The notes under the pieces: generated by a model
Database searches by the model: none
Told to the model about the DNA's origin: nothing
Seen by the model: the letters and a program-made list of their open reading frames with translations, nothing else
Virus record (IMG/VR): IMGVR_UViG_3300047673_000112
Coordinates: 1-42,192 of that record
Strand: one strand, 5' to 3'
DNA: 42,192 nt
From: a virus
Translations under genes and position numbers: made by a program
In this document: positions 15,682 to 31,444 of the stretch, one piece after another
Layout: each line of letters begins with the position of its first letter
How positions within the stretch are numbered: the stretch's first letter is position 1

Positions 15682-15684
15682 ACA

Positions 15685-15715: not shown

Positions 15716-15719
15716 GTCG

Positions 15720-15780
15720 TTACACACGGTTTCGCAGCCAATAACACCCGGTTTCGTAGCCCGCTACACCTAGTTTCGTG
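15720..15780 (+). promoter_or_regulatory. three tandem copies of the 17-bp operator, 22 bp apart
   Basis: Copies at 15720-15736 (TTACACACGGTTTCGCA), 15742-15758 (TAACACCCGGTTTCGTA) and 15764-15780 (CTACACCTAGTTTCGTG). Starts are exactly 22 bp apart, two helical turns, so a bound protein would sit on one face of the DNA. They fit TNACACNNNGTTTCGTA and lie just past the late terminator, ahead of the leftward small gene. Confidence 0.75.
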
Positions 15781-15822
15781 TCAATGCGTCCCGTAACCGT
15801 CCCGTAAACCCGTTTCGGCGCG

Positions 15823-15897
15823 TCAACTTCCGCGCCAATAAAGGGGTCTGAGGTTATGGGGCCGGTTCCTGTTCAGAATAGGCTTACGAATCGGCAT
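15823..15897 (-). CDS. possible arginine-rich 24-residue peptide, leftward
   Basis: A minus-strand reading frame from ATG 15897 to TGA 15823. Its main support is a strong upstream ribosome site (AGGAAGGG with a six-base spacer) in an otherwise gene-free region, and operator copies close upstream (15917-15933, 15949-15965). The peptide MPIRKPILNRNRPHNLRPLY is very basic. Too short for coding statistics; it may be a leader peptide or chance. Confidence 0.3.
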   Translation of the reverse strand: MPIRKPILNRNRPHNLRPLYWRGS

Positions 15898-15916
15898 GTT
15901 GTTTCCCTTCCTAGTG

Positions 15917-15965
15917 TTACACCCGGCTTCGGCGAACGACTCCCACCGCCCGAAACGGTGTGTAA
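15917..15965. promoter_or_regulatory. two facing operator copies
   Basis: A weaker copy on the plus strand at 15917-15933 (TTACACCCGGCTTCGGC) and one on the minus strand at 15949-15965 (minus reading TTACACACCGTTTCGGG). They flank the start of the possible leftward peptide and may control a leftward promoter that I cannot place with confidence. Confidence 0.55.
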
Positions 15966-16035
15966 CCTTGTGAACCCTGTGAACGTGGTGGTTTTCAAAT
16001 AGTCCCGTACTAGTCCTGTAGACCCTCAAACCGTC

Positions 16036-16073
16036 CCCGAAACCGTGTGCAACTCTTACGAAACTAAGTGTTG
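16036..16073 (-). promoter_or_regulatory. operator pair overlapping the 16071 promoter
   Basis: Two minus-strand copies of the 17-bp motif at 16036-16052 and 16057-16073, 21 bp apart. On the plus strand the second reads TACGAAACTAAGTGTTG and covers the first bases of the -35 box. A protein bound here would block the promoter. Confidence 0.75.
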
Positions 16074-16099
16074 ACTTATGTATATACAGGGCTTAGACT
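16071..16099 (+). promoter_or_regulatory. rightward sigma-70-type promoter
   Basis: -35 TTGACT (16071-16076), 17-base spacer, -10 TAGACT (16094-16099). The predicted start near 16106 is about 30 bases before the ATG of the next gene. It drives the four-gene operon 16138-17256, ending at the terminator 17264-17291. Confidence 0.75.
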
Positions 16100-16137
16100 C
16101 AATACATCGGAACAAGCCGAAGACGGAAGGTAAGACA

Positions 16138-16509
16138 ATGAGCACAGGAACCGAGTTCGCCAAGATGATCCGCAAGAACTTCGGCATCGGCACCACCACT
16201 CGCACCTACCGTCGCGGCCTGAACCTGAAGAACGAAATGTTGGAAGCCATCGCAACTTCCAACAACTACCCCGGATACTACAACGAAGCCAAGACCGCGC
16301 TCTTCCGAGCTGCTTACCCCGTCTTCAACTCCTACCTGAAGCACGTGAAGGGACACCGCATCGACGGCATGACCGCCTTCCGCATCGAACAGATGAGCCC
16401 CTGGCAGTTCGCCGGCTTGCTCGGAGAAATGATCGACGCAGGAATCACCAACAACTTCGAGGGCGAACTGTTCTTCCAGAACATGAGGAAGCAGGCGATG
16501 GCCGCATGA
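16138..16509 (+). CDS. hypothetical protein, first gene of operator-controlled operon
   Basis: A 123-residue protein starting at ATG 16138 (GGAAGG upstream). A frame extension to 16078 would lie inside the promoter, so it is rejected. The protein is basic at the N-terminus (EFAKMIRKNFGIGTTTRTYRRG) and helical after that, with many Asn, Tyr and Phe residues; no known domain is recognised. It is the first gene from the 16071 promoter and is coupled to the ribbon-helix-helix gene by an ATGA overlap. Base use is slightly less GC-rich than the structural genes. Confidence 0.75.
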   Translation: MSTGTEFAKMIRKNFGIGTTTRTYRRGLNLKNEMLEAIATSNNYPGYYNEAKTALFRAAYPVFNSYLKHVKGHRIDGMTAFRIEQMSPWQFAGLLGEMIDAGITNNFEGELFFQNMRKQAMAA

Positions 16510-16652
16510 GCAAGACCCCACTGCGGGCGGTCCGCGTTGATCCTGAACTCTGGGAGAAGGCGCGGGCCGTCGCGGACAAGAACGGCGACAACCTGAGTGC
16601 CGTTATCCGAGACGCGCTCAGAACCTACATCCAAGAGAATGAGGACAAATGA
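16506..16652 (+). CDS. ribbon-helix-helix DNA-binding protein (CopG/Arc-like)
   Basis: A 48-residue protein from ATG 16506, overlapping the previous stop. It fits the ribbon-helix-helix fold: strand RAVRVDPELW (7-16), helix EKARAVADKNG (17-27), turn DN and helix LSAVIRDALRTYIQENE (30-46). These proteins bind DNA as dimers through the paired strands. It may be an autoregulator of its own promoter, a Cro/Xis-type control protein, or the protein that binds the dispersed operators; none of these is shown. ATGA overlap with the following gene. Confidence 0.8.
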   Translation: MSKTPLRAVRVDPELWEKARAVADKNGDNLSAVIRDALRTYIQENEDK

Positions 16653-16912
16653 CCAATCAAGTGATCCCGGACGAGGCTGTCGAAGCGGCGGCGAAAGCGT
16701 TTCAGCTGGAACTCGTTATGAGGAAAGGCGAAATCGGCGCATCATCGCTCGCCTTACTAGCCGCCCTCGAAGCCGCAGCCCCGCACATGATCCAGGCCGC
16801 AAGGGCGGAGGCATGGGACGAGGGGCACCTGATGGGCTGGAATGAAGCCACCGCCAATACGCTGCCCGAACGCGAATCACTCTGGCGAAACCCCTACAGG
16901 ACCGCCAAGTGA
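16649..16912 (+). CDS. hypothetical protein with EAVEAAAKA / EAAAPHM motif
   Basis: An 87-residue helical protein with an N-terminal PDEAVEAAAKAF motif and LEAAAPHMIQAAR in the middle. The same frame of motifs occurs in the next gene and at 28623-28862, so this is a small repeated phage family. Such proteins are widespread in actinophages with no known role. Its first 45 bases include a 36-bp sequence repeated exactly in the next gene (16906-16941). Start and stop overlap both neighbours. Confidence 0.75.
   Translation: MTNQVIPDEAVEAAAKAFQLELVMRKGEIGASSLALLAALEAAAPHMIQAARAEAWDEGHLMGWNEATANTLPERESLWRNPYRTAK
16658..16693 (+). repeat. 36-bp exact direct repeat, copy 1
   Basis: Identical to 16906-16941. 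It encodes the shared VIPDEAVEAAA segment of the two adjacent paralogues. The copies are 248 bp apart, a substrate for recombination that would fuse or delete the genes. Confidence 0.9.
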
Positions 16913-16941
16913 TCCCGGACGAGGCTGTCGAAGCGGCGGCG
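16906..16941 (+). repeat. 36-bp exact direct repeat, copy 2
   Basis: Identical to 16658-16693, at the start of the second paralogue. Identity at third codon positions means either recent duplication or gene conversion. Confidence 0.9.
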
Positions 16942-17256
16942 CGGGCTTCGTGGGAAAAGGCCAATAGCGATCCGTGGATTAGCGGCGACCACGATGACGA
17001 GCGCTGGGCTGATCGCCGGGTCTACCTAGACGACGCCCGAGTGATGCTCGAAGCCGCTGCCCCGCACATGCTCTCCCATGAGCGGGAACAGACCAGGCTC
17101 GCACACTTGGACGCCGTCGTGAACGCGCGGACGGTAGACAAGCTGAACAACGCAGTTGAGGCCGTGCTCGCACTCGTGGATGCCAACACCCTGAACGGTG
17201 TTGTCATAGTCAGCGCGGCCCGAATCCGCGCCGCGATCACCAAGGCACTCCAGTAG
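16909..17256 (+). CDS. hypothetical protein, paralogue of the upstream gene
   Basis: A 115-residue protein from GTG 16909 overlapping the preceding TGA. Residues 2-13 (IPDEAVEAAARA) and about 50-55 (LEAAAPHM) match the upstream protein; the C-terminal half (KLNNAVEAVLALVDANTLNGV VIVSAARIRAAITKAL type helix pair) differs. It ends the operon; a terminator lies eight bases downstream. Role unknown. Confidence 0.75.
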   Translation: MIPDEAVEAAARASWEKANSDPWISGDHDDERWADRRVYLDDARVMLEAAAPHMLSHEREQTRLAHLDAVVNARTVDKLNNAVEAVLALVDANTLNGVVIVSAARIRAAITKALQ

Positions 17257-17263
17257 AACCACA

Positions 17264-17291
17264 AGCCCCCACCAAACGGTGGGGGCTTTTT
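17264..17291 (+). terminator. intrinsic terminator between the 16.1-17.3 kb operon and integrase
   Basis: Perfect 10-bp stem AGCCCCCACC (17264-17273) and GGTGGGGGCT (17278-17287), loop AAAC, then five T to 17291. It closes the rightward operon and abuts the integrase stop codon, so it may also shield the two convergent transcripts. Confidence 0.88.
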
Positions 17292-18482
17292 CTATGTCCC
17301 GAAGATTTCGAGGGCTTCCCCGGTGTCGATGGGGGTCAGGGATTGGGCCACGTAATGGGCCAGCGTGACCTTGTCGGATGCGTGGCCGAGCTGCTTTGAG
17401 GCCAACACGGAACCGTGGGCTTCATTGACCAACGTCGCAACCGTCTTACGCAACGTCTTCTGCGTCACCCACGACCATTCCGAATCGGCGAACGTTGCCG
17501 CCCACGCCCTCGCGACGTTCCTGGGGGCGAGCAGGTTGCCCTTGCCCGTGTGGAACACCATCGGCCCCGTTGCCGTGGCACGTCGTTCCCTCAGCATTTC
17601 GAGGACGACACCGCGCAACCTCAGCCGGCGAATGTCGTGCTCCTTCGTGGGCCTGAGTTGGAGCCCGTTCCCCGGCTCGCGGACGACCTGCTGCCGGATC
17701 TCCACCCACGGCTCCGGCGCGTCAAGGTGAACGTCCTCCCACGCAAGACCCAGCACCTCACCAGCACGGCAACCCGTAGCCAACAGGAAGTGCATCACGT
17801 CCAACGGCAGTTGCCCGCGGTTCTTCCCACCCATCCGGGCCGTGTCACCATTCGCACGCTCGAACCGCTCCTCATACGTGTACGGCTTCAACCGCTCCAC
17901 CGCATAATCACGCATCGCCACAACCTCAGCAACGGTCAACGCACGGATCGGCTTCCTAGCCTGCTTCGGGACCGGCACATAACCAACAGGGTTCATCCCC
18001 GCCGCACCCCACCGCACAGCCGCCGTAAACATCCCCGACAGTTTAGACCTGACGTTGAACGACGCCCCCGGACCATGCTCACGCGTCACATCCCGGACCA
18101 GCTTCTCAACCACCTGCGGCGACACCTCACGAATCCTGAACTTCCCCAGCTTCGGGATGATGTGGTTATCCAGGCACAGCCGCAAATTGTAAAGCGTGTT
18201 CGCCGCTAGACCGTCTTCCTGCTTCGCGGCCCAATACTTCTCCGCCAACTCAGACACCCGCGACTCACTGTCCAACTCCGCACCACCCGCGGACTTCGCA
18301 CGCCCCCGAAACTTCGCCTTCAACGCCGACTCAGCAGCACCCCGCGAGCCGCCCTGAGCCTTCACACGCCGCGTCTCACCATCCACATCCCGGTAACGCG
18401 CCATCGCCACATGCTTCCCATCCGGCGACTTGGAATAGCTGATATGGCCGTAGTCACCTATGGCTAGCTGCGGACGTGGCAC
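17292..18482 (-). CDS. int: tyrosine integrase
   Basis: A 396-residue site-specific recombinase. An arm-type DNA-binding region (1-70) is followed by a core-binding SAM-like domain (about 75-165) and the catalytic domain (about 180-390). Catalytic residues seen: Arg239 (ATGCRAGE), Lys280, Arg345 (TLRK), His367 (LGHAS) and Tyr377 (HYV). The first His of the usual HxxR box is replaced by Lys342, a substitution I regard as compatible with activity. Start is GTG 18482 with AGGGG upstream. It inserts the phage genome at attB, so the phage is temperate. Own promoter at 18509-18538. Confidence 0.95.
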   Translation of the reverse strand: MPRPQLAIGDYGHISYSKSPDGKHVAMARYRDVDGETRRVKAQGGSRGAAESALKAKFRGRAKSAGGAELDSESRVSELAEKYWAAKQEDGLAANTLYNLRLCLDNHIIPKLGKFRIREVSPQVVEKLVRDVTREHGPGASFNVRSKLSGMFTAAVRWGAAGMNPVGYVPVPKQARKPIRALTVAEVVAMRDYAVERLKPYTYEERFERANGDTARMGGKNRGQLPLDVMHFLLATGCRAGEVLGLAWEDVHLDAPEPWVEIRQQVVREPGNGLQLRPTKEHDIRRLRLRGVVLEMLRERRATATGPMVFHTGKGNLLAPRNVARAWAATFADSEWSWVTQKTLRKTVATLVNEAHGSVLASKQLGHASDKVTLAHYVAQSLTPIDTGEALEIFGT

Positions 18483-18508
18483 CCGTTACCCCTGACGTTA
18501 GTGAAGTG

Positions 18509-18538
18509 CTTATACTCCATTTTCCCATGATTAGTCAA
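18509..18538 (-). promoter_or_regulatory. leftward promoter for integrase
   Basis: Read on the minus strand: -35 TTGACT (18538-18533), 18-base spacer, -10 TATAAG (18514-18509). Expected start about 18502, 20 bases before the GTG. It lies between the ImmA-like gene and integrase, allowing integrase expression apart from the repressor transcript. Confidence 0.65.
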
Positions 18539-18543
18539 GTAAG

Positions 18544-19005
18544 TCACGCGGCGCCTATGAGCATTGCGGCGCGCATCTGGATCGCGGGGCACTTCGCGCA
18601 CTCCCAACAGCCCGCCTCGGAGGCTTGGGAGTCCGTCAACGTCGCGGCCCGGTCCATCAGCACTCGTTTCGTCACCCCCAGCAGCTTCGCCGTCTCCGAG
18701 AGCGTCCCCGACTTACACACGCCCGCGATCCGATCCAACGGAAGCAGCCGGCGCGCAGTCTCATACCTGACGGACATCTCCTCAGACTCCAACTGACGCG
18801 TCCCCTGGCCCCGCTCCACATGGATCGCCTCATGCGTCAACGCGCACAACATCTGCACCGCGTTCAACGACTCGTTCAGGTAAATGTTCTCCCCGTCCGT
18901 GTAACCGTGAACACTCTCAGGCAACTTGGTAATAAAGACCTGTCCCACAACAACCCCACAACTGTCGCACCTCAACCCCCCAGCGGTGTTGATTGGCAAG
19001 AGCAT
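18544..19005 (-). CDS. ImmA/IrrE-type zinc metallopeptidase with cysteine pairs
   Basis: A 153-residue protein. HEAIH at residues 58-62 is the zinc-binding HExxH motif, preceded by YLNESLNAVQMLCALT, the usual helix of ImmA/IrrE proteins. A CDSC pair (13-16) near the start and CWECAKC near the end could hold another zinc. ATG 19005 has AGGA five bases upstream; a TTG six codons earlier is less likely. ImmA enzymes cut phage or ICE repressors during induction. It lies just downstream of the repressor gene on the same strand, so it probably acts on that repressor. Inference from family and position. Confidence 0.82.
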   Translation of the reverse strand: MLLPINTAGGLRCDSCGVVVGQVFITKLPESVHGYTDGENIYLNESLNAVQMLCALTHEAIHVERGQGTRQLESEEMSVRYETARRLLPLDRIAGVCKSGTLSETAKLLGVTKRVLMDRAATLTDSQASEAGCWECAKCPAIQMRAAMLIGAA

Positions 19006-19117
19006 AAAGGTCCTACCTGACAATTTGGTTCGAAAGTATGTTCGGGAAACGTCACGATTTCAGCATAAATCAGATAACAAATGGTTACGTGACATCATCA
19101 ACGCAGGTCAGGGGCCT
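19006..19117. other. gap between repressor and ImmA-like genes with inverted repeat
   Basis: A 112-bp AT-richer gap. It holds an inverted repeat GTCACG/CGTGAC (about 19051 and 19090) around CAGCATAAATCAG. A leftward promoter for the ImmA-like gene may lie here (minus CATACT as -10), but no convincing -35 is visible. No gene is seen. Confidence 0.4.
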
Positions 19118-19885
19118 TTAGTCCCTATCATCCTCACCCGGAACATGCTCATCCGACGCGGCCAAATCGTAGTGAGACTGCTCACTGTGCAACGGGACCA
19201 CGTTCGACGGGGCCCGCAACCGGTCAAGCTCCAACTGCATCGCACCCACCTTCCGGGTTAGTTCCATCAGCAACTCATCCACAGACAGGTCACGCGCCTT
19301 GGCAGTCCCAGGCTCCGGCATTGCTGCCCAATCCCGAACCTCAGACAGCGTGAACGCCTTCGTTATCGGCGCCTCCAGGATCTCCGTGATAACCCCACGA
19401 CGCCACCCCAGCGCATCCTCCAACATCGGGCGCGACTTACGCAACGGAGTCACCTCACCATCACGCCACCCATAAAACGACCGCTCAGCCCCCACCGACC
19501 AGCCCCGGAAAATATCCGCCGGCCCCCGCCGCGACTCGTCCAACTCCTCCTTGATCAGGCGCGATAGTTCGGCGCGGTTGTCCTTTGTCTCGGCGCGCAG
19601 CTTGCGGCCCCGGTTTGCAGCAAGCTCCTTAGCCGCATCCTCACGCCCTACAGCGATCAGTTCCTCCTCGGTGACCTCCACTACCGAAGCCATCCGCGCC
19701 AGCGTCTCAGCCGGCGCTACAACCTTTACCTGATCGCCCCTACCGACCGCCTGGTAACCGTTCACGATGTTCCTCCACCTTGTATCTGACATGCCGAGTT
19801 CTTCGGCTGCCTTGCGGGCCGAGATGTGCAGTCTCTTCTGGGCGTCTCCGATGAGCTTGCCCTCGGGTGTTTGCATGTTTTCCAT
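19118..19885 (-). CDS. immunity repressor with two HTH domains
   Basis: A 255-residue protein from ATG 19885. Residues about 10-45 are an atypical XRE-like HTH (ISARKAAEELGMSDTRWRNIVNG); a linker follows, then about 105-171 resembles a second HTH with the actinobacterial prophage pattern GAERSFYGWRDGEVTPLRKS and LEDALGWRRGVITEIL. The C-terminal part (about 200-235) is a helix that could mediate dimers. It is divergent from a Cro-like gene across a region with three TTATGCGAA copies, and upstream of the ImmA-like and integrase genes. No Shine-Dalgarno lies before ATG 19885, pointing to a leaderless mRNA. An in-frame ATG 12 codons upstream would extend into the operator. Confidence 0.8.
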   Translation of the reverse strand: MENMQTPEGKLIGDAQKRLHISARKAAEELGMSDTRWRNIVNGYQAVGRGDQVKVVAPAETLARMASVVEVTEEELIAVGREDAAKELAANRGRKLRAETKDNRAELSRLIKEELDESRRGPADIFRGWSVGAERSFYGWRDGEVTPLRKSRPMLEDALGWRRGVITEILEAPITKAFTLSEVRDWAAMPEPGTAKARDLSVDELLMELTRKVGAMQLELDRLRAPSNVVPLHSEQSHYDLAASDEHVPGEDDRD

Positions 19886-20053
19886 GTCGCTAGCTTGTTC
19901 GCGAAAGTTATGCGAAGTCAATTAGGCCGACTACGTGCTTTGTTCGCAATCACAATCGTGTAATTCTCATTTTTCCGCGTACTTACGCTGTTTTCCGAAA
20001 AACTTATGCGAACTGTGTTGACTTCGCATAACTTCGCAGTGCATGATTGACCT
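19886..20053. promoter_or_regulatory. divergent repressor/Cro control region
   Basis: Three exact copies of TTATGCGAA or its complement: 19908-19916, 20004-20012 and 20023-20031 (the last two form an inverted repeat 10 bp apart). A palindrome TTCGCGAA lies at 19898-19905. -35 TTGACT boxes: plus 20018-20023, minus 19921-19916. Each is 36 bases from its ATG. Plus -10 CATGAT at 20042-20047 (18-base spacer); no convincing minus -10. Both genes lack ribosome sites. Confidence 0.75.
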
Positions 20054-20302
20054 ATGGAAAACAAGTTCAGGGGCCACAGAGTCGCCCCGCTCAACCAGGA
20101 CCCGAAGGCGGTCCGGTGGGCACTTGCAGCCACCCGAATGTCACAGGAACAGCTGCGGTCCCGCACCGGCATCTCCGCATCACTCATCAACGAAATCCTC
20201 TCCGGCAAACGCAACGCCACACCGGAAAAGCTCGGCCTCATCGCCGACGCCCTCAACTGCCCCGTCAGCGTCCTCGAAGCAAAAAAGGACTGGGCAGCAT
20301 GA
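20054..20302 (+). CDS. Cro-like XRE-family regulator, probably leaderless
   Basis: An 82-residue protein with an XRE HTH at about 29-60 (MSQEQLRSRTGISASLINEILSGKRNATPEKL) and a short C-terminal helix (LGLIADALNCPVSVLEAKK). It is the first gene of the rightward early operon and divergent from the repressor, the normal place for Cro. No ribosome site precedes ATG 20054; the -10 at 20042-20047 puts the transcription start at about the A of ATG. Stop overlaps the next ATG. It likely competes with the repressor for the TTATGCGAA sites. Confidence 0.85.
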   Translation: MENKFRGHRVAPLNQDPKAVRWALAATRMSQEQLRSRTGISASLINEILSGKRNATPEKLGLIADALNCPVSVLEAKKDWAA

Positions 20303-20694
20303 GCACCCACCAGCACGCAGACAAAGAGACGTATGTATACCGGCTCTTCAACGCAGACCGGGAACTCATCTACATCGGATGCACCCACGACGTAGAGGCC
20401 CGGATCAACGCACACCGCGTAAGCGCCTGGTGGTATCCGCAGGTTCACTTCTCATCCGTCGAAGACTTCTCGGACCGAACCACGGCCCACGCCGCCGAGA
20501 TGAAAGCCATCTTCACCGAGAACCCGAAATGGAACATCCGCCACCGCTCACTAGGCACCACCGGATGGACTGCGCAGATGTACCTCGACTACATCAAGGC
20601 AGTCCAGATGACCGGCCCTCAGTACGCCTTCCACCGGAACTGCGTGAAGCGCGCGCAGCGGTTCCTATCAGCGCTTGAAACCCAAGCCGCGTGA
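20299..20694 (+). CDS. GIY-YIG domain protein
   Basis: A 131-residue protein from ATG 20299. Residues 11-40 match the GIY-YIG core: YVYRLFN (Tyr12, Tyr14), LIYIGCTHD (Tyr25-Ile-Gly27) and Arg35 (ARINAH); an Glu at about 57-60 or 74-77 would complete the site. GIY-YIG enzymes cut or nick DNA. There is no extra DNA-binding domain, so it is not a usual homing endonuclease; small phage forms may act in recombination or exclusion. Second gene of the early operon, coupled to the Cro-like gene. Confidence 0.75.
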   Translation: MSTHQHADKETYVYRLFNADRELIYIGCTHDVEARINAHRVSAWWYPQVHFSSVEDFSDRTTAHAAEMKAIFTENPKWNIRHRSLGTTGWTAQMYLDYIKAVQMTGPQYAFHRNCVKRAQRFLSALETQAA

Positions 20695-20870
20695 TGAACG
20701 TGACGACCATCTGGTCCACCACTCACACGGCCCCGATCACCTTCGACCGGATCAGTCCGACCATCGTGCAGATCACCCTCGAAGACGGATCAACCCAGCT
20801 CTACAACGCAGCCGACCTCGAAGCGGTCTGCAAAACCGAATCAGCCCAAAACCACCAGGAGAAGAAATGA
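20694..20870 (+). CDS. hypothetical small protein
   Basis: A 58-residue protein from ATG 20694 (a GTG one codon earlier is also in frame), overlapping the preceding stop by one base. Start is beta-like (ITFDRISPTIVQITLEDGSTQLYN) with an acidic/amide C-terminus. Start and stop overlaps with both neighbours support coding. No known family. Confidence 0.6.
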   Translation: MNVTTIWSTTHTAPITFDRISPTIVQITLEDGSTQLYNAADLEAVCKTESAQNHQEKK

Positions 20871-21052
20871 CCGCCAAGACCAGCCCCCAGCACCGCGCCG
20901 AACCGAACGAGAAGACCCTCGCTTTCTGGCAGCGCGAAGAAAACCTCCACCGCATCCACGGTGTGAAGCCTGAGATCCTCCCCGGCTTCGGCAAGCACCG
21001 TCAGCCGTCCATCATGGCCGCACCCGAGACGGAAGCCGAGGCGGCGGCATGA
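20867..21052 (+). CDS. hypothetical small protein
   Basis: A 61-residue protein from ATG 20867, overlapping the stop before it, with GGAGAAG upstream. Charged N-terminus (QHRAEPNEKTLAFWQREENL), then GVKPEILPGFGKHR and an acidic Ala/Glu tail. Coupled on both sides. No function recognised. Confidence 0.65.
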   Translation: MTAKTSPQHRAEPNEKTLAFWQREENLHRIHGVKPEILPGFGKHRQPSIMAAPETEAEAAA

Positions 21053-21336
21053 GCGCCCGGGATGAACTGGCAGAGGTGATCGAAGCAGGTTACGCCGGCA
21101 GTGATAGCCATTGCCCGTACGACCACGCCACGGAAATCGCAGAAGCGATCCTCGCCGCGGGCTACGTGAAGGCGGAACCGGCATGGGCAGAAACTCTCAC
21201 CAACGACGGAACCTACGAGTACACGATCAGTTCCGACTGCGACGGCTCAAACGTCCAGCACTGGCGCCGGGTTCCGGGACTCATTTACGAGGGTCAGGCA
21301 TCGCCTTGGCTCACCTACACCCCCGAGGAGTCCTGA
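21049..21336 (+). CDS. hypothetical protein
   Basis: A 95-residue protein. The N-terminal half (ELAEVIEAGYAGSD ... HATEIAEAILAAGYVK) is a pattern frequent in small actinophage proteins; the C-terminal half is aromatic (YTISSDCDGSNVQHWRRVPG). ATGA overlap with the gene before; its TGA overlaps the next ATG by one base. Role unknown. Confidence 0.68.
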   Translation: MSARDELAEVIEAGYAGSDSHCPYDHATEIAEAILAAGYVKAEPAWAETLTNDGTYEYTISSDCDGSNVQHWRRVPGLIYEGQASPWLTYTPEES

Positions 21337-21701
21337 TGGGCCGCGTAACGGAACCCCAGGCCCGGCAGATCATCCGGGAAATGTGCAGCCAGTTCATCGA
21401 AGACGAACCAGCCCGCAGTGAGAGTGTCATGGCGGAGTTGGACCGGCTCGAACAGCTCGAAGACGACATCACCGCGAAGATCGGCGCCGACATCAGGCAC
21501 GGGTCCTTGGCTGACACCCTCACCACACTCGACGGGATCCAGTCCGTCGAATGCGGCACCCACCCCGACCTTGTCCAGAACGCAGCGCTGACCATCAACA
21601 CGGCGCCCGACATCCTGGACCGCCTCGAATCACAACTCCGCGAAGACCTTTGGTTCGTCCTCCAAGCAGCCGGCTTCACCGCAAAGAGGTACGCGGCATG
21701 A
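21336..21701 (+). CDS. hypothetical acidic helical protein
   Basis: A 121-residue acidic, mainly helical protein from ATG 21336 (GAGGAG upstream). Contains RLEQLEDDITAKIGADI and two later helices with DRLESQLREDLWFVLQAAGF. No catalytic motif. Coupled to the next gene by ATGA. Confidence 0.65.
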   Translation: MGRVTEPQARQIIREMCSQFIEDEPARSESVMAELDRLEQLEDDITAKIGADIRHGSLADTLTTLDGIQSVECGTHPDLVQNAALTINTAPDILDRLESQLREDLWFVLQAAGFTAKRYAA

Positions 21702-21826
21702 ACGACGCCACAACCCTCGCCGCGATCCGGGACACGTTGGACGAGTACTTCCGGGGACAGTCGGACCACTACGAAGTCTTGAATCGCATCGCCTACATCA
21801 CCGGACTGAACGAAGGTGCGAAATGA
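21698..21826 (+). CDS. hypothetical small protein
   Basis: A 42-residue protein from ATG 21698 with AAAGAGG upstream. Sequence MNDATTLAAIRDTLDEYFRG is helical and acidic, followed by HYEVLNRIAYITGL. Start and stop overlap both neighbours, the best evidence that it is translated. Function not recognised. Confidence 0.6.
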   Translation: MNDATTLAAIRDTLDEYFRGQSDHYEVLNRIAYITGLNEGAK

Positions 21827-21936
21827 ACGCCCTAATCCTCCTCCTCGCAACAGTCGGCACGGGCCTCATGATCCACCCCGCTATCCGCCACGACAACGAC
21901 CAACCCATCCAAGTCACAGGAAAGGCACGCAAATGA
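21823..21936 (+). CDS. small single-helix membrane peptide
   Basis: A 37-residue peptide from ATG 21823 (GAAGG upstream). Residues 2-16 (NALILLLATVGTGLM) form a short hydrophobic helix, followed by a polar tail. ATGA at both ends. It could be a small membrane regulator; no family known. Confidence 0.5.
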   Translation: MNALILLLATVGTGLMIHPAIRHDNDQPIQVTGKARK

Positions 21937-24915: not shown

Positions 24916-24927
24916 CCCACTTCACCC

Positions 24928-24955: not shown

Positions 24956-24972
24956 ACCGAAAGGAACCCAGC

Positions 24973-25305
24973 ATGTACGTCCACGGCGCAACGACCAACA
25001 CCACCCAGGCTGTCCGCAAAACCGCCGACCAAGTCCGGGCCGACCTCGAACACCTCCGCCGCATCGAACAGCAGATCATGGCAGAGACGGCCGCGAAAGA
25101 CCGGGAACTCGCACGGATCCGGGCCGCACGGAAGAAGCTCGAACCCAAAGCCACCTACCTGCCCACGGCCGAAGCCCTCGCCTACTGGGAGCAGCATCAC
25201 GACACTGTCGCAGCCCAGCCCGCGCCACTCCACGGCGGCCCCGCAGGACTCCGCAAAGCAGCCCACGAAGCAGCCACCTACGACGCACAGAGGAACGCCG
25301 CATGA
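24973..25305 (+). CDS. coiled-coil hypothetical protein
   Basis: A 110-residue protein from ATG 24973 with AAGGAA upstream. Residues about 12-55 form a charged coiled coil (ADQVRADLEHLRRIEQQIM and onwards), then YLPTAEALAYWEQHHD and a Gly/His-rich segment. First gene after the SSB hairpin; ATGA overlap with the next. No enzyme motif. Confidence 0.65.
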   Translation: MYVHGATTNTTQAVRKTADQVRADLEHLRRIEQQIMAETAAKDRELARIRAARKKLEPKATYLPTAEALAYWEQHHDTVAAQPAPLHGGPAGLRKAAHEAATYDAQRNAA

Positions 25306-25394
25306 GTGCCGCTACGGAGGAACGCAAAGCCCAACGCCGGCAAGCAGACCAGGAACGCCGAGCCGCCCAAGCCAAAGACAGGAAGACCCGATGA
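25302..25394 (+). CDS. 30-residue charged peptide
   Basis: A very short gene from ATG 25302, overlapping the stop before and the start after it. The peptide MSAATEERKAQRRQADQERR is a single charged helix. Support is the overlap pattern and GGAGG inside it that serves nearby starts; it may be a real product or a translation-coupling element. Confidence 0.4.
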   Translation: MSAATEERKAQRRQADQERRAAQAKDRKTR

Positions 25395-25540
25395 GCCTCC
25401 TAGCCCGCTCCAAGCCCTACCGTGTCGCCGACCCCAAAACCTACCAATGCAACCGGTGCGGCATCATCCGACCCTTCCGACTCGGACGCTCACCCTACTG
25501 CCGCGACTGCAAACCATACGCACCCAAGGAGAGCAAATGA
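25391..25540 (+). CDS. small zinc-ribbon protein
   Basis: A 49-residue protein from ATG 25391. CNRCGIIRPFRLGRSPYCRDC gives a clear CxxC-x15-CxxC zinc ribbon. ATGA overlaps on both sides. Zinc ribbons of this size usually contact nucleic acid or act as adaptors. Confidence 0.65.
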   Translation: MSLLARSKPYRVADPKTYQCNRCGIIRPFRLGRSPYCRDCKPYAPKESK

Positions 25541-25635
25541 ACGCCGGATACTGCGCGAAATGCAATGAGCCAACGGATGAGTTTGTGGAGGTACCCCTAT
25601 GCGCGTACCACCGCGACCACCCAGAGGAAGGGTGA
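25537..25635 (+). CDS. small CxxC protein
   Basis: A 32-residue protein from ATG 25537 (GGAGAG upstream). CAKCNEPTDEFVEVPLCAYH has CxxC and C-x2-H, a possible one-zinc fold. It precedes the first methyltransferase; GAGGAAGGG at its end is that gene's ribosome site. Confidence 0.5.
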   Translation: MNAGYCAKCNEPTDEFVEVPLCAYHRDHPEEG

Positions 25636-25639
25636 CGTG

Positions 25640-26425
25640 ATGGGCGGCCCGTACTACCAAGACGACAGTGTCACCCTTTATCACGGTGACGCGCTCGAGG
25701 TACTCCCGAACGTGTCCGGCGTTGACCTAATGGTCACATCTCCGCCATACAACCTCGGCAGTTCACCTTGGCCCAAGCTGGGGAACTGGAAGCAAGGCGA
25801 CAGCGTCGACGGCAAGAGTAAATGGCGCAATGGCTCTGACGGCGGCGGCGGGATGGGCTACGACGAGCATGGGGACGATATCCCCTGGCCTGAGTACGTG
25901 GGATGGCAGCACGCCATCCTGAAAGCCTGCTGGGATGCCCTGTCTGACAAGGGTGCCATCTACTACAACCACAAGCCCCGCGTCGTTGGCGGGAAGCTGT
26001 GGATGCCTACGGAACTGAACCCTAACCTGCCGCTCCGCCAAGTAATCATCTGGGCACGCGCTGGTGGAATGAACTTCAACCCGACCGCCTACCTGCCGAC
26101 CCACGAGTGGATCATGGTGCTTGCTAAGGAGAAGTTCAGGCTGAAATCCAAGGGCGCGTCCGGTGCCGGTGACGTGTGGCGTATCAACCAGGACTCTGAC
26201 AACAAGCATCCCGCACCGTTCCCTATCGGCATTCCAGCTCTGGCGATTGAGACGACCGCGCCCAAGCTCGTACTAGACCCCTTCGCGGGCAGCGGGACAA
26301 CGCTGCGCGCCGCCAAGGATGCAGGTGTCCAATCAATCGGGATAGAAAAGTCAGAAGCGTACTGCGAAATGATCGCCAAACGATGCGCACAGGAAGTATT
26401 GGACCTCTTCGGTGGCGCAGCATGA
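25640..26425 (+). CDS. DNA methyltransferase (N4-cytosine or N6-adenine, TSPPY type)
   Basis: A 261-residue beta-class amino-methyltransferase. The catalytic motif TSPPYN (33-38) comes first and the SAM-binding motif DPFAGSGTT (213-221) near the end. TSPPY is most often seen in N4-cytosine enzymes, but N6-adenine activity cannot be excluded. The target-recognition part lies between (about 45-195). ATG 25640 is chosen; GTG 25637 is also in frame. No restriction enzyme gene is near, so it probably protects phage DNA from host restriction. It is one of three methyltransferases in this region. Confidence 0.9.
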   Translation: MGGPYYQDDSVTLYHGDALEVLPNVSGVDLMVTSPPYNLGSSPWPKLGNWKQGDSVDGKSKWRNGSDGGGGMGYDEHGDDIPWPEYVGWQHAILKACWDALSDKGAIYYNHKPRVVGGKLWMPTELNPNLPLRQVIIWARAGGMNFNPTAYLPTHEWIMVLAKEKFRLKSKGASGAGDVWRINQDSDNKHPAPFPIGIPALAIETTAPKLVLDPFAGSGTTLRAAKDAGVQSIGIEKSEAYCEMIAKRCAQEVLDLFGGAA

Positions 26426-26772
26426 GCCTCCCGTGGGTCCGTTTGGACACCGCAATGCCCCGAAACCACAAAATCCTGGCACTCCTCGAGACCCGTGGCG
26501 GCAAAGAATCAGCGTTCGTTTACGTCTGCTCACTGTCCTACTGCGGCGAACAAGGCCTCGAAGGATTTTTCCCCAAAGCAGCCCTCCCATTCATCCACGC
26601 CAAACCAGTAGACGCCCAACGCCTCGTAGACGTAGGCCTCTGGATTGAGCAGCCAGGCGGGTGGATGGTCAACGGCTGGACCGACTACCAACCCACCGAC
26701 GAACAGAACCGGAAACGATCCGAAAAGGCAAAGAAAGCAGCAGCGGCCCGGTGGGAAAAGGCCAAAGTCTGA
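26422..26772 (+). CDS. DnaD-like / replication-associated winged-helix protein
   Basis: A 116-residue protein from ATG 26422 (ATGA overlap). The pattern WVRLDTAMPRNHKILALLET, AFVYVCSLSYCGEQGLEG, FFPKAALPFIH, RLVDVGLWIEQPGGWMVNGW is the winged-helix found at the start of phage replisome organisers and widespread in actinophages. The basic C-terminus (RKRSEKAKKAAAARWEKAK) would bind DNA. No ATPase domain is present, so it is only a replication-initiator candidate. Repeats just downstream (26778-26838) would fit an origin. Confidence 0.6.
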   Translation: MSLPWVRLDTAMPRNHKILALLETRGGKESAFVYVCSLSYCGEQGLEGFFPKAALPFIHAKPVDAQRLVDVGLWIEQPGGWMVNGWTDYQPTDEQNRKRSEKAKKAAAARWEKAKV

Positions 26773-26932
26773 TGCCACAAGCAATGCTCCAAGCATTGCT
26801 ACCCAAGCAATGCACGGACGGACGGACGGACGGACGAACGTCTAACCTCGCCTTTCGCTTCGCTTGGCTTCTAAAGAAGTTGGGGTACTTTCCGCCGCCG
26901 ACGTCACTACCTATACGCGAAGGTCTCACACC
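26773..26932 (+). repeat. iteron-like and tetranucleotide repeat region (possible origin)
   Basis: Three copies of CAAGCAWTGCW start at 26778, 26790 and 26804; the first two form a 9-bp hairpin (26780-26800). Five perfect ACGG units and two variants follow at 26814-26838. An AT-richer stretch with CTTCTAAAGAAG comes next. A 54-residue frame from ATG 26772 reads through the region, but its sequence is a by-product of the repeats and is not called as a gene. Confidence 0.6.
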
Positions 26933-27289
26933 ATGACACAAAAATTCGATGAAGAAGACGCCAAAAACCTCTACTGGATCATCCAACGCCGACGCCCCAA
27001 CTGGCACTGGAAAGGAATCATGCACTCACTACAGCAAGCAGCATCACGTGGCGCTTCACTCACCCAGGTGATGGCGGCGGCGGAGAAGACCTGGAACAAC
27101 CAAAAAGCCACAACCCCCGCCGCGATCCTCTGGGACGAGCACTGGCAGGAGTCCAAGACTTCACAGACAGCCGGGAACATCATGGCCCCCCGCCTCTGCG
27201 TCGAATGCACCGCCAAGAAACCCGTCATTGAAATGACCAAACACGCCCACGGCTGGGTCTGCAATTCGCACGCGGAGGAAGGAAAATGA
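26933..27289 (+). CDS. hypothetical protein with C-terminal zinc-finger-like part
   Basis: A 118-residue protein from ATG 26933 (GAAGG upstream); a TTG extension is rejected because it enters the repeat region. Helical N-terminus (DAKNLYWIIQRRRPNWHWKGIMHSL) and a CVECTAKKP ... HGWVCNSH cysteine/histidine end. Similar proteins occur next to replication genes in actinophages and may be partners of the DnaD-like protein. ATGA overlap with the cytosine methyltransferase. Confidence 0.65.
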   Translation: MTQKFDEEDAKNLYWIIQRRRPNWHWKGIMHSLQQAASRGASLTQVMAAAEKTWNNQKATTPAAILWDEHWQESKTSQTAGNIMAPRLCVECTAKKPVIEMTKHAHGWVCNSHAEEGK

Positions 27290-27975
27290 GCTACAAGATT
27301 CTTGACCTGTTCTGCGGCGCCGGCGGCGCTGGACGCGGCTACATGGATGCAGGGTTCGACGTCACCGGCGTGGACATCGCCGCCCAGCCCGACTACCCCG
27401 GAACGTTCATCCAGGGCGATGCGCTGGCCTACCTCGCAGCGCACGGCCACGGGTACGACGCCATCCATGCCTCACCACCGTGCCAGGCGTCCTCAGCACT
27501 GTCCAAGGGCACGAACAAGGGCAACTACTACCTGAACCTCATCCCCGCCACGCGAGCCCTCCTCGCACTCCACAACGTCCCCACCGTGATTGAGAACGTC
27601 CAAGGATCCGACCTGCGCCGCGACCTCACACTTTGCGGCGAAATGTTCGGCCTCGGCGTCATCCGACACCGCTACTTCGAGGTATCAGGGTTCGCCGCAC
27701 TGCCGACGCCCCACAAACCCCACCGCGGACGTGTAGCCGGCTGGCGACACGGCGAATGGTTCGACGGCCCCTACTTCGCCGTCTACGGAGACGGAGGAGG
27801 CAAAGGGACCGTCGCCCAATGGCAAGACGCCATGGACATGCACTGGACCGACAACCGCAAATCCATCGCCGAAGCAATCCCCAAGGCGTACACAAGATTC
27901 ATCGGCGGACAGATCATGCAGTACCTCGAATCACAACAAGCCATCAACGAACTCCGGGACGAGGTAGCAGCATGA
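27286..27975 (+). CDS. C5-cytosine DNA methyltransferase
   Basis: A 229-residue m5C methyltransferase. SAM-binding motif DLFCGAGGAGRGY (7-19), catalytic Pro-Cys in SPPCQASS (63-70, Cys66) and motif VI ENV (103-105) are all present; the final RFIGGQIMQYL helix matches motif X. At 229 residues it is shorter than typical 300-450 residue enzymes, so the target-recognition domain is small (about 120-190). No endonuclease partner is seen. Probably an anti-restriction function. Confidence 0.9.
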   Translation: MSYKILDLFCGAGGAGRGYMDAGFDVTGVDIAAQPDYPGTFIQGDALAYLAAHGHGYDAIHASPPCQASSALSKGTNKGNYYLNLIPATRALLALHNVPTVIENVQGSDLRRDLTLCGEMFGLGVIRHRYFEVSGFAALPTPHKPHRGRVAGWRHGEWFDGPYFAVYGDGGGKGTVAQWQDAMDMHWTDNRKSIAEAIPKAYTRFIGGQIMQYLESQQAINELRDEVAA

Positions 27976-28379
27976 CCACTGTTGAGAATGGTTCGCAAGA
28001 AGCAAGCGCCTCCCGTTCCCGCGCGCACGTCCTTGAGATCTTAGCGCCGGCTCCGTGGATCAATTCGAACGACAGGAAGCATCGGCAGGCGGAAGCGAAA
28101 TTGACTGCATTGTGGCGGGAGGCTGGGCGGGCGTCTGTGGGCCTCGTGGACGTGGAGCCTTACGCGGGGCCGGTGCATATCTTCGCGCACGTCTACAAGC
28201 CGCGTGGAGGCCGCTACGACCCGAACAACCTGTGGCCCACGGTGAAGGCCGCTGTTGATGGGCTGGTTGACGCGGGGTTCCTGGTGGACGACGACCACAA
28301 GCACGTGATCGGCCCGGACATGCGGCACGGTGGGAAGGGGCCGGCGGCTTTGGTCCTGACGGTCACCGAGATTCCCTAA
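27972..28379 (+). CDS. rusA: RusA-type Holliday junction resolvase
   Basis: A 135-residue protein from ATG 27972. Residues about 78-112 (PRGGRYDPNNLWPTVKAAVDGLVDAGFLVDDD) carry the conserved RusA acidic residues: Asp83, Asp96/Asp100 and Asp106-108. The enzyme cuts Holliday junctions made during recombination or replication. Last gene of the coupled early run from 20054; the stop is followed by an operator-containing gap. Confidence 0.92.
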   Translation: MTTVENGSQEASASRSRAHVLEILAPAPWINSNDRKHRQAEAKLTALWREAGRASVGLVDVEPYAGPVHIFAHVYKPRGGRYDPNNLWPTVKAAVDGLVDAGFLVDDDHKHVIGPDMRHGGKGPAALVLTVTEIP

Positions 28380-28396
28380 CTTTTGCCCGAAAATAG

Positions 28397-28435
28397 TTAC
28401 ACACGGTTTCGTGAAATCTACGAAACGAGGTGTAG
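28397..28435. promoter_or_regulatory. facing operator pair upstream of 28.5-31.4 kb operon
   Basis: Plus-strand copy at 28397-28413 (TTACACACGGTTTCGTG) and minus-strand copy at 28419-28435 (plus reading TACGAAACGAGGTGTAG). The second overlaps a -10-like TAGAAT (28433-28438). The -35 position is poor (CGTGAA at 28410-28415), so promoter activity may need help or may be weak. Confidence 0.65.
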
Positions 28436-28488
28436 AATTGTACGTATCGGCCCGAAGCAGCGGACCCCGAAACCCGGAGATGAGCACC

Positions 28489-28626
28489 ATGACCATCATT
28501 GACGAACTGATCACCCTCGTGGAGAACCTGGACGAGGACGGGCACGACTACCGCGACGTGCGGGCTATCAAACGGATCGCACACAACCTCGCCAAGATCG
28601 CCGAAAACCTGAAGGCGTCGGCATGA
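28489..28626 (+). CDS. hypothetical small helical protein
   Basis: A 45-residue protein. ATG 28489 is nine bases after GGAG (28476-28479); an in-frame ATG at 28480 touches the site and is less likely. The sequence IIDELITLVENLDEDGHDYR then AIKRIAHNLAKIAENL is two amphipathic helices. First gene after the 28.4 kb operators. No function recognised. Confidence 0.55.
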   Translation: MTIIDELITLVENLDEDGHDYRDVRAIKRIAHNLAKIAENLKASA

Positions 28627-28862
28627 GCGAAGCGCGCGTTACGGTCACTGAAGCCGCGGTAGAAGCGGCAGGGAAGGTGATCTACGAGGATGGGTGGGGA
28701 GGACCGCCATTCTGGGAAAGCATGGAGAGTGATCACCCTGCCCGCCTCACCTCGCTGGCAACAGCACAGGAAGCCCTCGAAGCCGCAGCACCGCACCTTG
28801 TCGCTTTCCCAATGGGAATGACTGAGGGTGAGTGGAAGAAATACGTGGAGTCCTACCGATGA
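28623..28862 (+). CDS. hypothetical protein of the EAAVEAA / EAAAPHL family
   Basis: A 79-residue protein from ATG 28623 (ATGA overlap). VTEAAVEAAGKVIYEDGWGG and ALEAAAPHLVAFP are the same paired motifs as in the two proteins at 16649-17256, so three members of this family exist in one genome, each in an operon behind the same operator type. Role unknown. Confidence 0.7.
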   Translation: MSEARVTVTEAAVEAAGKVIYEDGWGGPPFWESMESDHPARLTSLATAQEALEAAAPHLVAFPMGMTEGEWKKYVESYR

Positions 28863-29164
28863 CCGCGGACCCGATCACAGACCCGGAAGGCGTGGAGCTT
28901 GTCGCCCGGATTCACGCCCGGAAGTTGTCACAGCTCAAGGCGGATCTTGCGAAACAGGACGAAATCCTCAACCGGCTGGTCTCCGAAGCATCAAGCCACG
29001 GCACGAAACCCGAAGCGCACATCTGCTGGGAACTCGTCCACGAACGCGCCGGCATCAAAGCGACTATCCAGTCCCGCATCCAGCACTTCATCACCCGGCA
29101 CCTCATCGGTGACGACCCGGACCCGCAACCCTCACGCCTCGACAGAATGGACGGCATCGCATGA
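28859..29164 (+). CDS. hypothetical helical protein
   Basis: A 101-residue, helix-rich protein from ATG 28859. Contains VELVARIHARKLSQLKADLAKQ and ICWELVHERAGIKATI. ATGA coupling on both sides. No recognised domain. Confidence 0.65.
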   Translation: MTADPITDPEGVELVARIHARKLSQLKADLAKQDEILNRLVSEASSHGTKPEAHICWELVHERAGIKATIQSRIQHFITRHLIGDDPDPQPSRLDRMDGIA

Positions 29165-29346
29165 GTCAGCGTCTCCCGGATTACGACGACCTCCGCGCAC
29201 GACAAGCACGGGCCCAGGAACCCGCGACCCCCTTGTCTGAGTGGGAGATCGCAGGCAGGCGGGCACTCCACGAAATCGGCGCCCAACTCACCACCGGCAA
29301 CTACAACATCAACCGCATCCGCGACATCCTCGAAAAGGCGGCATAA
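29161..29346 (+). CDS. hypothetical small protein
   Basis: A 61-residue charged protein from ATG 29161 with ATGA overlap. Sequence DYDDLRARQARAQEPATPLS then WEIAGRRALHEIG and a C-terminal helix. Its TAA overlaps the next ATG (TAATG). Not recognised. Confidence 0.6.
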   Translation: MSQRLPDYDDLRARQARAQEPATPLSEWEIAGRRALHEIGAQLTTGNYNINRIRDILEKAA

Positions 29347-29804
29347 TGCTCACCTCTGGAACAATCATGGCAATCATCTTCGTCCCGATCGGTGGCATCG
29401 TCTCGCTCGTGGCCCTCGGGTTCATCATCGCGGCCATTCGTCACCAGAGTTCGGGCTACATGGACGACTTTCGGCTTGGGGCCGGGCTAGCTGGAGGACT
29501 TGGCCTAGCGCTCGGACTCGTGATGCTCGTCCCGCCAATTGTCGGGCTGTCTATGGTGAACTTCGACAGCGACTATATGGCCTACAAGCCGGTAAGTGGC
29601 AAGGTGGAGCAGATCGCGTCCCGGCAGATCGCAGACGGCAAATCGATGTCGCAGCGGTTCGTGTTCAAGATCAACGGTCAGCAGTACGGCATTGACGACA
29701 CCCGCGCCGCACTCGTCAAAGAAGGCGACACCGTCAACCTGAACTGCACCAGGGAATACGTGTGGGGATCGACCAACAACGGCTACGCATGCAATTGGGG
29801 CTAA
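29346..29804 (+). CDS. membrane protein with two helices and an extracytoplasmic domain
   Basis: A 152-residue protein. Membrane segments at about 7-31 (IMAIIFVPIGGIVSLVALGF) and 44-69 (LGAGLAGGLGLALGLVMLVP) are followed by an 80-residue soluble part (SGKVEQIASRQIADGKS ... NLNCTREYVWGSTNNGYACNWG) with two cysteines that could pair. Similar two-helix proteins with this ending occur in actinophages and their hosts. It could act at the cell envelope during infection, for example in exclusion; this is only inference. Confidence 0.65.
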   Translation: MLTSGTIMAIIFVPIGGIVSLVALGFIIAAIRHQSSGYMDDFRLGAGLAGGLGLALGLVMLVPPIVGLSMVNFDSDYMAYKPVSGKVEQIASRQIADGKSMSQRFVFKINGQQYGIDDTRAALVKEGDTVNLNCTREYVWGSTNNGYACNWG

Positions 29805-29806
29805 GC

Positions 29807-30595
29807 GTGACGTGCACGTGCCAGACGAACGCGACAGGCATCTACCTGTGCAATCACTGTTGTGAGGCGTTGGAGCAGGTCCTTAGCGAGCTGGATAGCG
29901 TGGTTGGTGATCTGGTGCGGGCTGTTCCGCGGGCGAGTCTGACGGCCAGCTACGGGGAACGGGTAAGCAGCTCGGGTAGCTTGCATGCGCCGTTGCCGGT
30001 GAACGAAGCAGCACTGGACGCGCACATCGCGTTGGACAAGTACCTCATGGTGACGGCGTTGGAGTTGGCGAAGGTCACGGGTGCCAGGTTGTCGGGCCGG
30101 GACAGTTCCGCGCTCTCGTCGTACATCCTGACGCACATCGGGACACTCCGCACCCAGTCGTGGGCGCCCGACGTCGAACCAACGCTGCGGGGGCTCGTCC
30201 GCGACTGCGAACGTGCCACGCGCACGGCGACACAAGCCGAGTTCGCCGGCACGTGCCCCGAAGACGGTTCGGAACTGTTCACCCACCAAGGCGGCGCAAC
30301 AGCGACCTGCCGGACCTGCTCCGTGGTGTACGAAGACGTCCAAGGCTGGCGGACCACGGCCAAAGCCTACGCCCGTGCTACCGATGACGAGGTCATCGGC
30401 TACCCCAAAGCACTCTCCGAACGGCTCGCCAAAGTCCACGGCGAAACCATCGGCGCAGACTACATCCGGGTACTCGCAGCACGCGGCCTCCTGGTCAGGG
30501 TCAACCCCGAACGCGGGGACGACGGGAAAGTGCTGCGGCCCATGTACAAGCTCGGAGACATCAAACAACTCATCACTAGGGAAGATGCGGCATGA
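29807..30595 (+). CDS. zinc-ribbon and winged-helix-like hypothetical protein
   Basis: A 262-residue protein from GTG 29807, preceded by GGGG. Cys-rich start (CTCQTNATGIYLCNHCCEAL), a helical middle (about 25-130), a zinc-ribbon-like CPEDG ... ATCRTC (about 150-170), then a C-terminal helix-turn-helix-like region (ALSERLAKVHGETIGADYIRVLAARGLLV). Proteins of this form are common in actinophage early regions; a DNA-binding role is likely but no specific function is known. ATGA overlap with the adenine methyltransferase. Confidence 0.68.
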   Translation: MTCTCQTNATGIYLCNHCCEALEQVLSELDSVVGDLVRAVPRASLTASYGERVSSSGSLHAPLPVNEAALDAHIALDKYLMVTALELAKVTGARLSGRDSSALSSYILTHIGTLRTQSWAPDVEPTLRGLVRDCERATRTATQAEFAGTCPEDGSELFTHQGGATATCRTCSVVYEDVQGWRTTAKAYARATDDEVIGYPKALSERLAKVHGETIGADYIRVLAARGLLVRVNPERGDDGKVLRPMYKLGDIKQLITREDAA

Positions 30596-31407
30596 CACTA
30601 AAACCGCCATTCGCCTACTACGGCGGGAAAACGACACTAGCATTGAAGATCGCCGATTTATTGCCGAAGCACGATCACTACGTGGAGCCCTTCGCAGGCT
30701 CCCTTGCCGTCCTGCTCGCCAAGGAGCCGACCGGGTGGGAAACCGTCAACGACCTCGACGGCGACCTCGTGAACTTCTGGCGAGTGCTCCGTGACCAGCC
30801 GGAAGAACTGGAGCGCGCCGCCATGCTGACGCCACACTCCCGAGAGGAATACGAAACAAGCAGGGATCTTGATGGCGACGACCTAGAGCGGGCACGGCGT
30901 GTATGGGTGCGCCTAACACAGGGGCGCTCACACTCAATGAAGCCGACGGGTTGGTGGTATGGTCGCCGCGCCGCAAGTAGGTTTACCTCCCCACCATCCG
31001 ATGTCGAGGGGTTCGCTGCGCGCACCCTCGCCGCGGCGGAACGCCTGAAGCGGGTAAGCCTAGAGAGCCGGGACGCCATTGAACTGGTGCGCGACTACGG
31101 CGCTGAACCGTCAGTCTGCATCTACGCCGACCCGCCCTACCTCGGAACAACGCGGGCGGCGAACTACCGCGTCGAGATGCTGGAGGATGACTTGCATGTG
31201 CAGCTTGCCGAAGCGCTGCGAGGATGCAAGGCTTCGGTAGTCCTTTCCGGGTATGCGTCACCGCTCTACGAGGACCTGTATCCAGGCTGGCACCGCATGG
31301 AACTCAAAGCGCCCACCGCACTCTCTGGCCGGGCCGCTGAGAATGAAGTCCTGTGGTCAAACGTTCCGCTTGGTGTGCAAGAAGCCTTCGACTTCAGCGC
31401 GGCCTAA
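30592..31407 (+). CDS. Dam-type N6-adenine DNA methyltransferase (D12 class)
   Basis: A 271-residue enzyme. Motif X/I: PPFAYYGGKTTLALKI (5-20), with Phe-Ala-Tyr-Tyr-Gly-Gly-Lys; VEPFAGSLAV (31-40) binds SAM; the catalytic motif is ADPPYLGTTR (179-188, Asp-Pro-Pro-Tyr). The C-terminal half carries HVQLAEAL and SGYASPLYEDLY, as in phage Dam enzymes. It methylates adenine in a short target, probably GATC-like, which cannot be told from sequence. Last gene of its operon; the intergenic operators and promoter follow. Confidence 0.93.
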   Translation: MTLKPPFAYYGGKTTLALKIADLLPKHDHYVEPFAGSLAVLLAKEPTGWETVNDLDGDLVNFWRVLRDQPEELERAAMLTPHSREEYETSRDLDGDDLERARRVWVRLTQGRSHSMKPTGWWYGRRAASRFTSPPSDVEGFAARTLAAAERLKRVSLESRDAIELVRDYGAEPSVCIYADPPYLGTTRAANYRVEMLEDDLHVQLAEALRGCKASVVLSGYASPLYEDLYPGWHRMELKAPTALSGRAAENEVLWSNVPLGVQEAFDFSAA

Positions 31408-31444
31408 CGAAACGATGTGTAACTCTGTACGAAACTAGGTGTTG
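31406..31444 (-). promoter_or_regulatory. operator pair overlapping the 31442 promoter
   Basis: Two minus-strand copies of the 17-bp motif at 31406-31422 and 31428-31444, exactly 22 bp apart. On the plus strand the second reads TACGAAACTAGGTGTTG and runs into the -35 box. Same layout as at 16036-16073. Confidence 0.78.

Follow-up and report, generated by a model that had tools for sequence, protein, structure and literature searches.

Which protein reads a set of short asymmetric sites that recur in the non-coding gaps of a temperate phage genome? The question is raised by IMG/VR record IMGVR_UViG_3300047673_000112, which we analyzed over its entire length (42,192 bases; the window) and which represents a temperate phage of actinobacterial type. 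Eleven such sites lie at three promoters and at the integration site, within the intergenic gaps 15542-16137, 28380-28490, and 31406-31540. We consider it likely that they are operators of the prophage repressor (19118-19885, minus strand), an immunity repressor of 255 aa with two helix-turn-helix (HTH) domains, and that they are read by its C-terminal, XRE-type HTH.

The original prediction described eleven copies of a 17 bp motif, TNACACNNNGTTTCGTA, confined to non-coding gaps and spaced by 21–22 bp within groups. All eleven copies are present at the predicted positions and on the predicted strands, and their confinement to gaps holds except that the first two bases of the 17-mer at 31406 belong to a stop codon. 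The spacing is likewise found in four groups, with 32 bp between the sites at 15917 and 15949. The motif is real, but the 17 bp consensus is too long: only the copy at 15742 matches it exactly, and the others have one to three mismatches. The core, ACACNNNGTTTCG (ACAC-N3-GTTTCG), occurs in nine exact copies, compared with 0.055 expected from base composition, and in two copies with one mismatch (15919 and 16038). In an unbiased count of gapped words it is the top word of the window, in which the same pattern read backwards has no copies.

An IMG/VR scan for two tandem cores returned only two contigs, and a separate IMG/VR scan with the repressor protein returned the same two and a third; together these are G002, G003, and G004. 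With the window, G001, and L032 they form a comparison set of six related sequences, which belong to one group and represent about three operator states. The sites of G002–G004 are in the same places as those of the window: around the phage attachment site (attP) beside the 3′ end of the integrase gene, before the homologue of 28411-28626, and before the homologue of 31499 or 31953. A scan with a weight matrix had been proposed as a check; we trained the matrix on the sites of G002, G003, and G004 only and then ran it on the window, where exactly the eleven sites ranked first (scores 26.4–16.2; next place, 10.8). Simulated sequence contained a mean of 0.12 places above the score of the eleventh site. 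The twelfth-best match (10.8) lies at 19077, in a gap on the downstream side of the repressor gene, and could be either a weak additional site or a chance match.

The 41 sites of four phages give the consensus A-n-n-G-Y-T-A-C-A-C-Y-Y-n-G-T-T-T-C-G-T. As predicted, it is not a true palindrome: its halves, YTACAC and CGAAAC (reverse complement), agree at up to four of six positions. All 26 short spacings between sites are 21–22, 31–32, or 52 bp, corresponding to 2, 3, or 5 helical turns, although many of them are homologous and so not independent. Spacings near 21, 32, and 52 bp place neighboring sites on the same face of the DNA. The pair at 16036 and 16057, 21 bp apart in the window, is 31 bp apart in G002 and G003, a difference of one turn.

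G001 has no ACAC sites, though related integrase, protease, ribbon-helix-helix (RHH), and 123 aa protein genes are present. Its own motif was missed by repeat finding in parts of the sequence and was found by the unbiased gapped-word count, in which the top word is ACTGNNNAGAACT (motif form TGWARA-GAA-CTGYAA). This word occurs at the equivalent places, beside the integrase gene and ahead of the homologues of 28411 and 31953, and at one further place upstream of the integrase gene. In L032, the att region contains sites of an intermediate form, TGAARC-N3-STGYAA. The three operator forms align without gaps (CGAAAC-N3-GTGTAR, TGAARC-N3-STGYAA, and TGWARA-GAA-CTGYAA).

The operator word varies together with the C-terminal domain of the repressor, in three states: the window with G002–G004, L032, and G001. 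The C-terminal part is 90% (G002), 73% (G003), and 69% (G004) identical to that of the window in the phages that share the ACAC operator. The domain is 42%–43% identical in G001 and 46% identical in L032 (63% in its most conserved core), both of which have changed operators. G002 and G004 have a different type of N-terminal HTH, and their ACAC sites are the same. The G003 repressor (L020:5545-6024) consists of the C-terminal half only, starting MSEDNRDELSRL, with in-frame stops just upstream and no N-terminal HTH; its ACAC sites are kept.

The N-terminal HTH of the window (residues 7–78; 19652-19867, minus strand), which is swapped in relatives and is the proposed reader of TGCGAAG sites, is common to the immunity repressors of GMA1, TinyDot, Holliday, TurkishDelight, and phiT46-1. 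The repressor/cro gaps of these phages contain TGCGAAG words, as does that of the window, where three copies in TTATGCGAAG-like form make up the TTATGCGAA sites (19908, plus; 20004, plus; 20023, minus; spanning 19908-20031). Unlike the window, these phages had no ACAC site in the stretches read, and the C-terminal domain was not found in their repressors. TGCGAAG is absent from the repressor/cro gap of G001–G004, which have other N-terminal HTHs or none. Because TGCGAAG follows the type of the N-terminal HTH and ACAC follows the C-terminal domain, each HTH of this modular repressor tracks its own word. The prediction that the motif is distinct from the repressor/cro sites, and that it defines a second dispersed set of asymmetric operators apart from them, is thus supported, and the second set is conserved in relatives.

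Two candidate binders had been put forward with the motif. One, the repressor, is the likely reader through its C-terminal HTH; the other, the RHH protein (16506-16652), is excluded by its distribution, as no relative was found in G002–G004, where the motif is present, and a relative occurs in G001, where it is absent. The 123 aa protein (16138-16509) was rejected on the same pattern of relatives. The protein encoded at 29762-30595 was also rejected, being only 36% identical in G002, which has the same motif.

AlphaFold models the C-terminal domain, the proposed reader of ACACNNNGTTTCG, as a five-helix XRE (HTH_3) HTH of Cro/CI-like fold (residues 103–171; 19373-19579, minus strand) with block-mean predicted local distance difference test (pLDDT) values of 79–90. 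A long helix follows at residues 202–224 and, judging from the model, could pair two repressor chains. The best fold matches of the domain are mostly XRE regulators, including C.Esp1396I, with template modeling (TM) scores by target of about 0.65–0.7 across some 70 residues. The domain falls within no Pfam or PHROG family. Searches of 50,697 phage records and of 72,556 plasmids gave no match to it, and two scans covering 84,980 genomes gave none that was confirmed.

Several observations weigh against the assignment of the sites to the C-terminal HTH. The E-values of the fold matches are weak (above 0.2). The co-variation reflects few independent events, with about three operator states; a blind alignment of the window motif with that of G001 found only a weak likeness (p = 0.04), and the L032 pattern was picked after the sequence had been viewed. 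The left triple of sites (15720-15780) overlaps no evident promoter. Finally, an HTH-phosphoesterase encoded at 32349-33830 is conserved in G002–G004 and had no match in G001, which makes it a conceivable alternative reader, although the recognition region of this protein is not constant among the window, G002, and G004.

Seven of the eleven copies are at attP, and the interleaving of this largest cluster with attP was missed in the original prediction. We recognized attP (15787-16021) by arm-type repeats of the integrase, CGTCCCGTA, which form a pair on each flank with the two members 11 bp apart: the left pair is at 15787-15806 (plus strand), with equivalent pairs in G001–G004, and the right repeats, AGTCCCGTACTAGTCCTGTAG, are at 16001-16021 (plus strand). 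Outside the left arms are three operators on the plus strand, at 15720-15736 (TTACACACGGTTTCGCA; conserved in G003 at 2862), 15742-15758 (conserved in G002 and G003), and 15764-15780 (conserved in G002, G003, and G004). Two operators face each other between the arms (15917-15933, plus; 15949-15965, minus), and two are outside the right arms (16036-16052 and 16057-16073, both minus). Judging from this layout, repressor bound to the attP copies would be expected to oppose recombination. The att region of L032 (L032:4780-5260) contains a stretch resembling the 3′ end of a tRNA, unlike the attP of the window.

The number of copies at attP beside the tyrosine integrase gene (17292-18482, minus strand) could mean that they are arm-type sites of the integrase. 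We hold this to be extremely improbable: the integrase has its own paired repeats on both flanks, and four ACAC copies are 12–15 kb away, at promoters. In addition, the arm repeat becomes CGTCGAGTA in G004, where the ACAC sites are constant, and in G001 the ACAC sites are changed and CGTCCCGTA is not. Because the arm repeats and the ACAC sites change in different relatives, the two motifs evolve apart, and with separate arm-type repeats the integrase is an unlikely reader.

P2 Cox is a single DNA-binding protein that acts at attP and at promoters. The sites might similarly be bound by a phage regulator other than the repressor, the best candidate being a small Cox-like (P2) or Apl-like (186) excisionase/regulator that recognizes both attP and promoters, and this would account for the interleaving of the largest cluster with attP and for the attP copies being conserved as well as the promoter copies. 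Apl of phage 186 binds att and early promoters alike and acts at both (PMC7498355). We nevertheless regard such a regulator as unlikely: none of the conserved small genes tested resembled an excisionase gene, and Apl binds direct repeats that follow each other at intervals of one helix turn, whereas the sites here are separated by 2, 3, or 5 turns. Cox and Apl are small excisionases; the reader proposed here is the lysogeny repressor, whose C-terminal domain is the HTH that tracks the operator type.

Each of the three promoter groups contains one predicted promoter that is overlapped by sites. Two overlaps with a −35 element had been predicted, and both are real. The operator at 16057 extends into the −35 of a predicted promoter (TTGACT-17-TAGACT; 16071-16099, plus strand) that serves the 16138-17256 operon, and the operator at 16036 is upstream of the same promoter. 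Similarly, the operator at 31428-31444 (minus strand) extends into the −35 of a predicted promoter at 31442-31471 (TTGACT-18-TACAAT, plus strand; identical in G003 and G004), with its partner at 31406-31422 (minus strand; conserved in G003 and G004). In the third group, the operator at 28397-28413 (plus strand) is conserved in G002–G004 and has a changed form in G001 at 36073. Its neighbor at 28419-28435 (minus strand) also touches a promoter, the predicted GTGAAA-16-TAGAAT at 28411-28438 (plus strand), whose −35/−10 spacer it fills, reaching the −10 element TAGAAT.

The attP-side promoter in G002 and G003 also shows site placement of the spacer type, and the G002 counterpart of the 31.4 kb pair (13841/13863) is reversed in orientation and covers the −35. 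Core promoter elements are thus covered in either orientation, which fits steric repression. Several copies (16057 and 31428) end at the −35, a position that would also suit an activator of late or middle promoters. This reading is highly improbable, as the 28419 copy and its relatives are between the −35 and −10 elements and the 13863 copy of G002 lies reversed over the −35, and these positions are typical of steric repression.

No site was seen inside operons; each lies either at a predicted promoter or at attP, and relative to transcription the sites point both ways. These features do not support the proposed likeness to the stoperators of mycobacteriophages. In cluster A mycobacteriophages, sites of the L5 type share the orientation of transcription, and the majority lie away from promoters (PMC6550527, PMC9283540). 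The window shares with L5 and TipsytheTRex an asymmetric 13 bp core that recurs many times, two DNA-binding domains in the repressor, and variation of operator and repressor together between relatives (PMC6550527, PMC9283540). The left triple, moreover, comes after the terminator of the late operon. We still find it quite improbable that these are true stoperators, where bound repressor would stop RNA polymerase during elongation as it does in L5, because the sites occur in both orientations (28397 versus 28419, and the reversed 13841/13863 pair of G002) and because the window contains the L5 stoperator word about as often as expected by chance (3 matches with no more than 2 mismatches versus 2.4 expected). 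In TipsytheTRex, both repressor domains read one site and are reported to bind only when joined (PMC9283540), whereas G003 keeps the motif without an N-terminal HTH. In the repressor of the window the two HTHs, of which the C-terminal one is of the XRE type, appear to read separate sites. A profile search of PDB sequences gave no match between the repressor and the Rep proteins of L5 and TipsytheTRex, and neither protein was among the top 50 of PDB fold searches.

We propose that the N-terminal HTH of the repressor reads the TGCGAAG sites and, together with Cro, would set the repressor/cro switch. The C-terminal HTH would read the imperfect dyad YTACAC-N3-GTTTCG at about eleven places, probably as a pair held together by the coiled coil that follows it. 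Repressors bound there would sit 2, 3, or 5 helical turns apart on one face of the DNA and would cover the −35 or the −35/−10 spacer of the 16071, 28411, and 31442 promoters, blocking initiation, and those on the remaining copies, which bracket and fill attP, would oppose excision in the lysogen. The sequence itself shows the sites and their conservation, the places where they overlap predicted promoters and attP, the modular build of the repressor, and the co-variation of operator and C-terminal domain. Physical binding, dimerization, repression, and the effect on recombination are in this scheme what we infer from sequence. The evidence is evenly balanced on a broader proposal, that the repressor is bispecific, with two different HTH heads in one chain serving two unrelated operator sets. 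The N-terminal head would be exchanged between phages with cro and its operators, changing the specificity of the switch, and the C-terminal head would stay fixed with its regulon of late/middle promoters and attP.

The surrounding genes are arranged in the order integrase, metalloprotease, repressor, Cro-like HTH protein (20054-20302, plus strand), and recombination and methylase genes, with structural genes at both ends of the window. The terminase/portal region is closest to Streptomyces phages, followed by some Microbacterium and Gordonia phages, mostly at 65%–70% DNA identity over short stretches. The metalloprotease that adjoins the repressor (18544-19023, minus strand; phage metallo-protease family, HEAIH) is a possible ImmA-like inactivator of the repressor. 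Downstream of the operator-covered 16071 promoter, the 16138-16652 segment encodes the 123 aa protein, which has no family, and the RHH protein, which is Arc-like; in G001 this gene pair is instead between the protease and the repressor. The protein encoded at 32349-33830 is an HTH fused to a metallophosphoesterase, and in its place G001 has a similar small HTH adjoining a DnaQ-like exonuclease (L016:19582-20000, L017:1-606). Directly after the 31442 promoter are a strong hairpin (z = −4.5) and a U run (31442-31515). The stem is kept in G003 with a different loop and in G004 without the U run, and the element may be a late promoter that carries its own terminator.

Dispersed asymmetric operators are already known. 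The C1 repressor of phage P1 has 22 such operators of 17 bp (PMC8546580), which are spread over the genome and read by a single repressor, as proposed here. The words are unrelated, however, the P1 operator word has no match in the window, the reader proposed here is the second HTH of a two-HTH repressor, and some of the copies here are at attP. In SPbeta, MrpR (YopR) reads the dispersed SPBRE element, which had been found years earlier by sequence alone (PMC10516654). As in our case, an intergenic dispersed element was predicted from sequence, and SPBRE was later shown to be the binding site of the master repressor; MrpR differs in being a former tyrosine recombinase rather than an XRE-kind HTH repressor, and the SPBRE motif is 15 bp long. 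The present case combines features of the P1, L5, SPbeta, and 186 systems and, beyond the dispersed operator set, matches none of them by its defining features. In the literature that we searched, we found no description of a repressor in which two DNA-binding domains appear to serve separate and independent sets of operators.

If the proposal is true, a bispecific repressor would couple the silencing of transcription with locking of the attachment site, it would explain how recombination can exchange switch specificity while distant promoters stay under control, and it would allow a direct test of whether a repressor of lysogeny is able to keep that site closed. The three operator states, together with their matching HTH variants, form a small natural data set for a recognition code.

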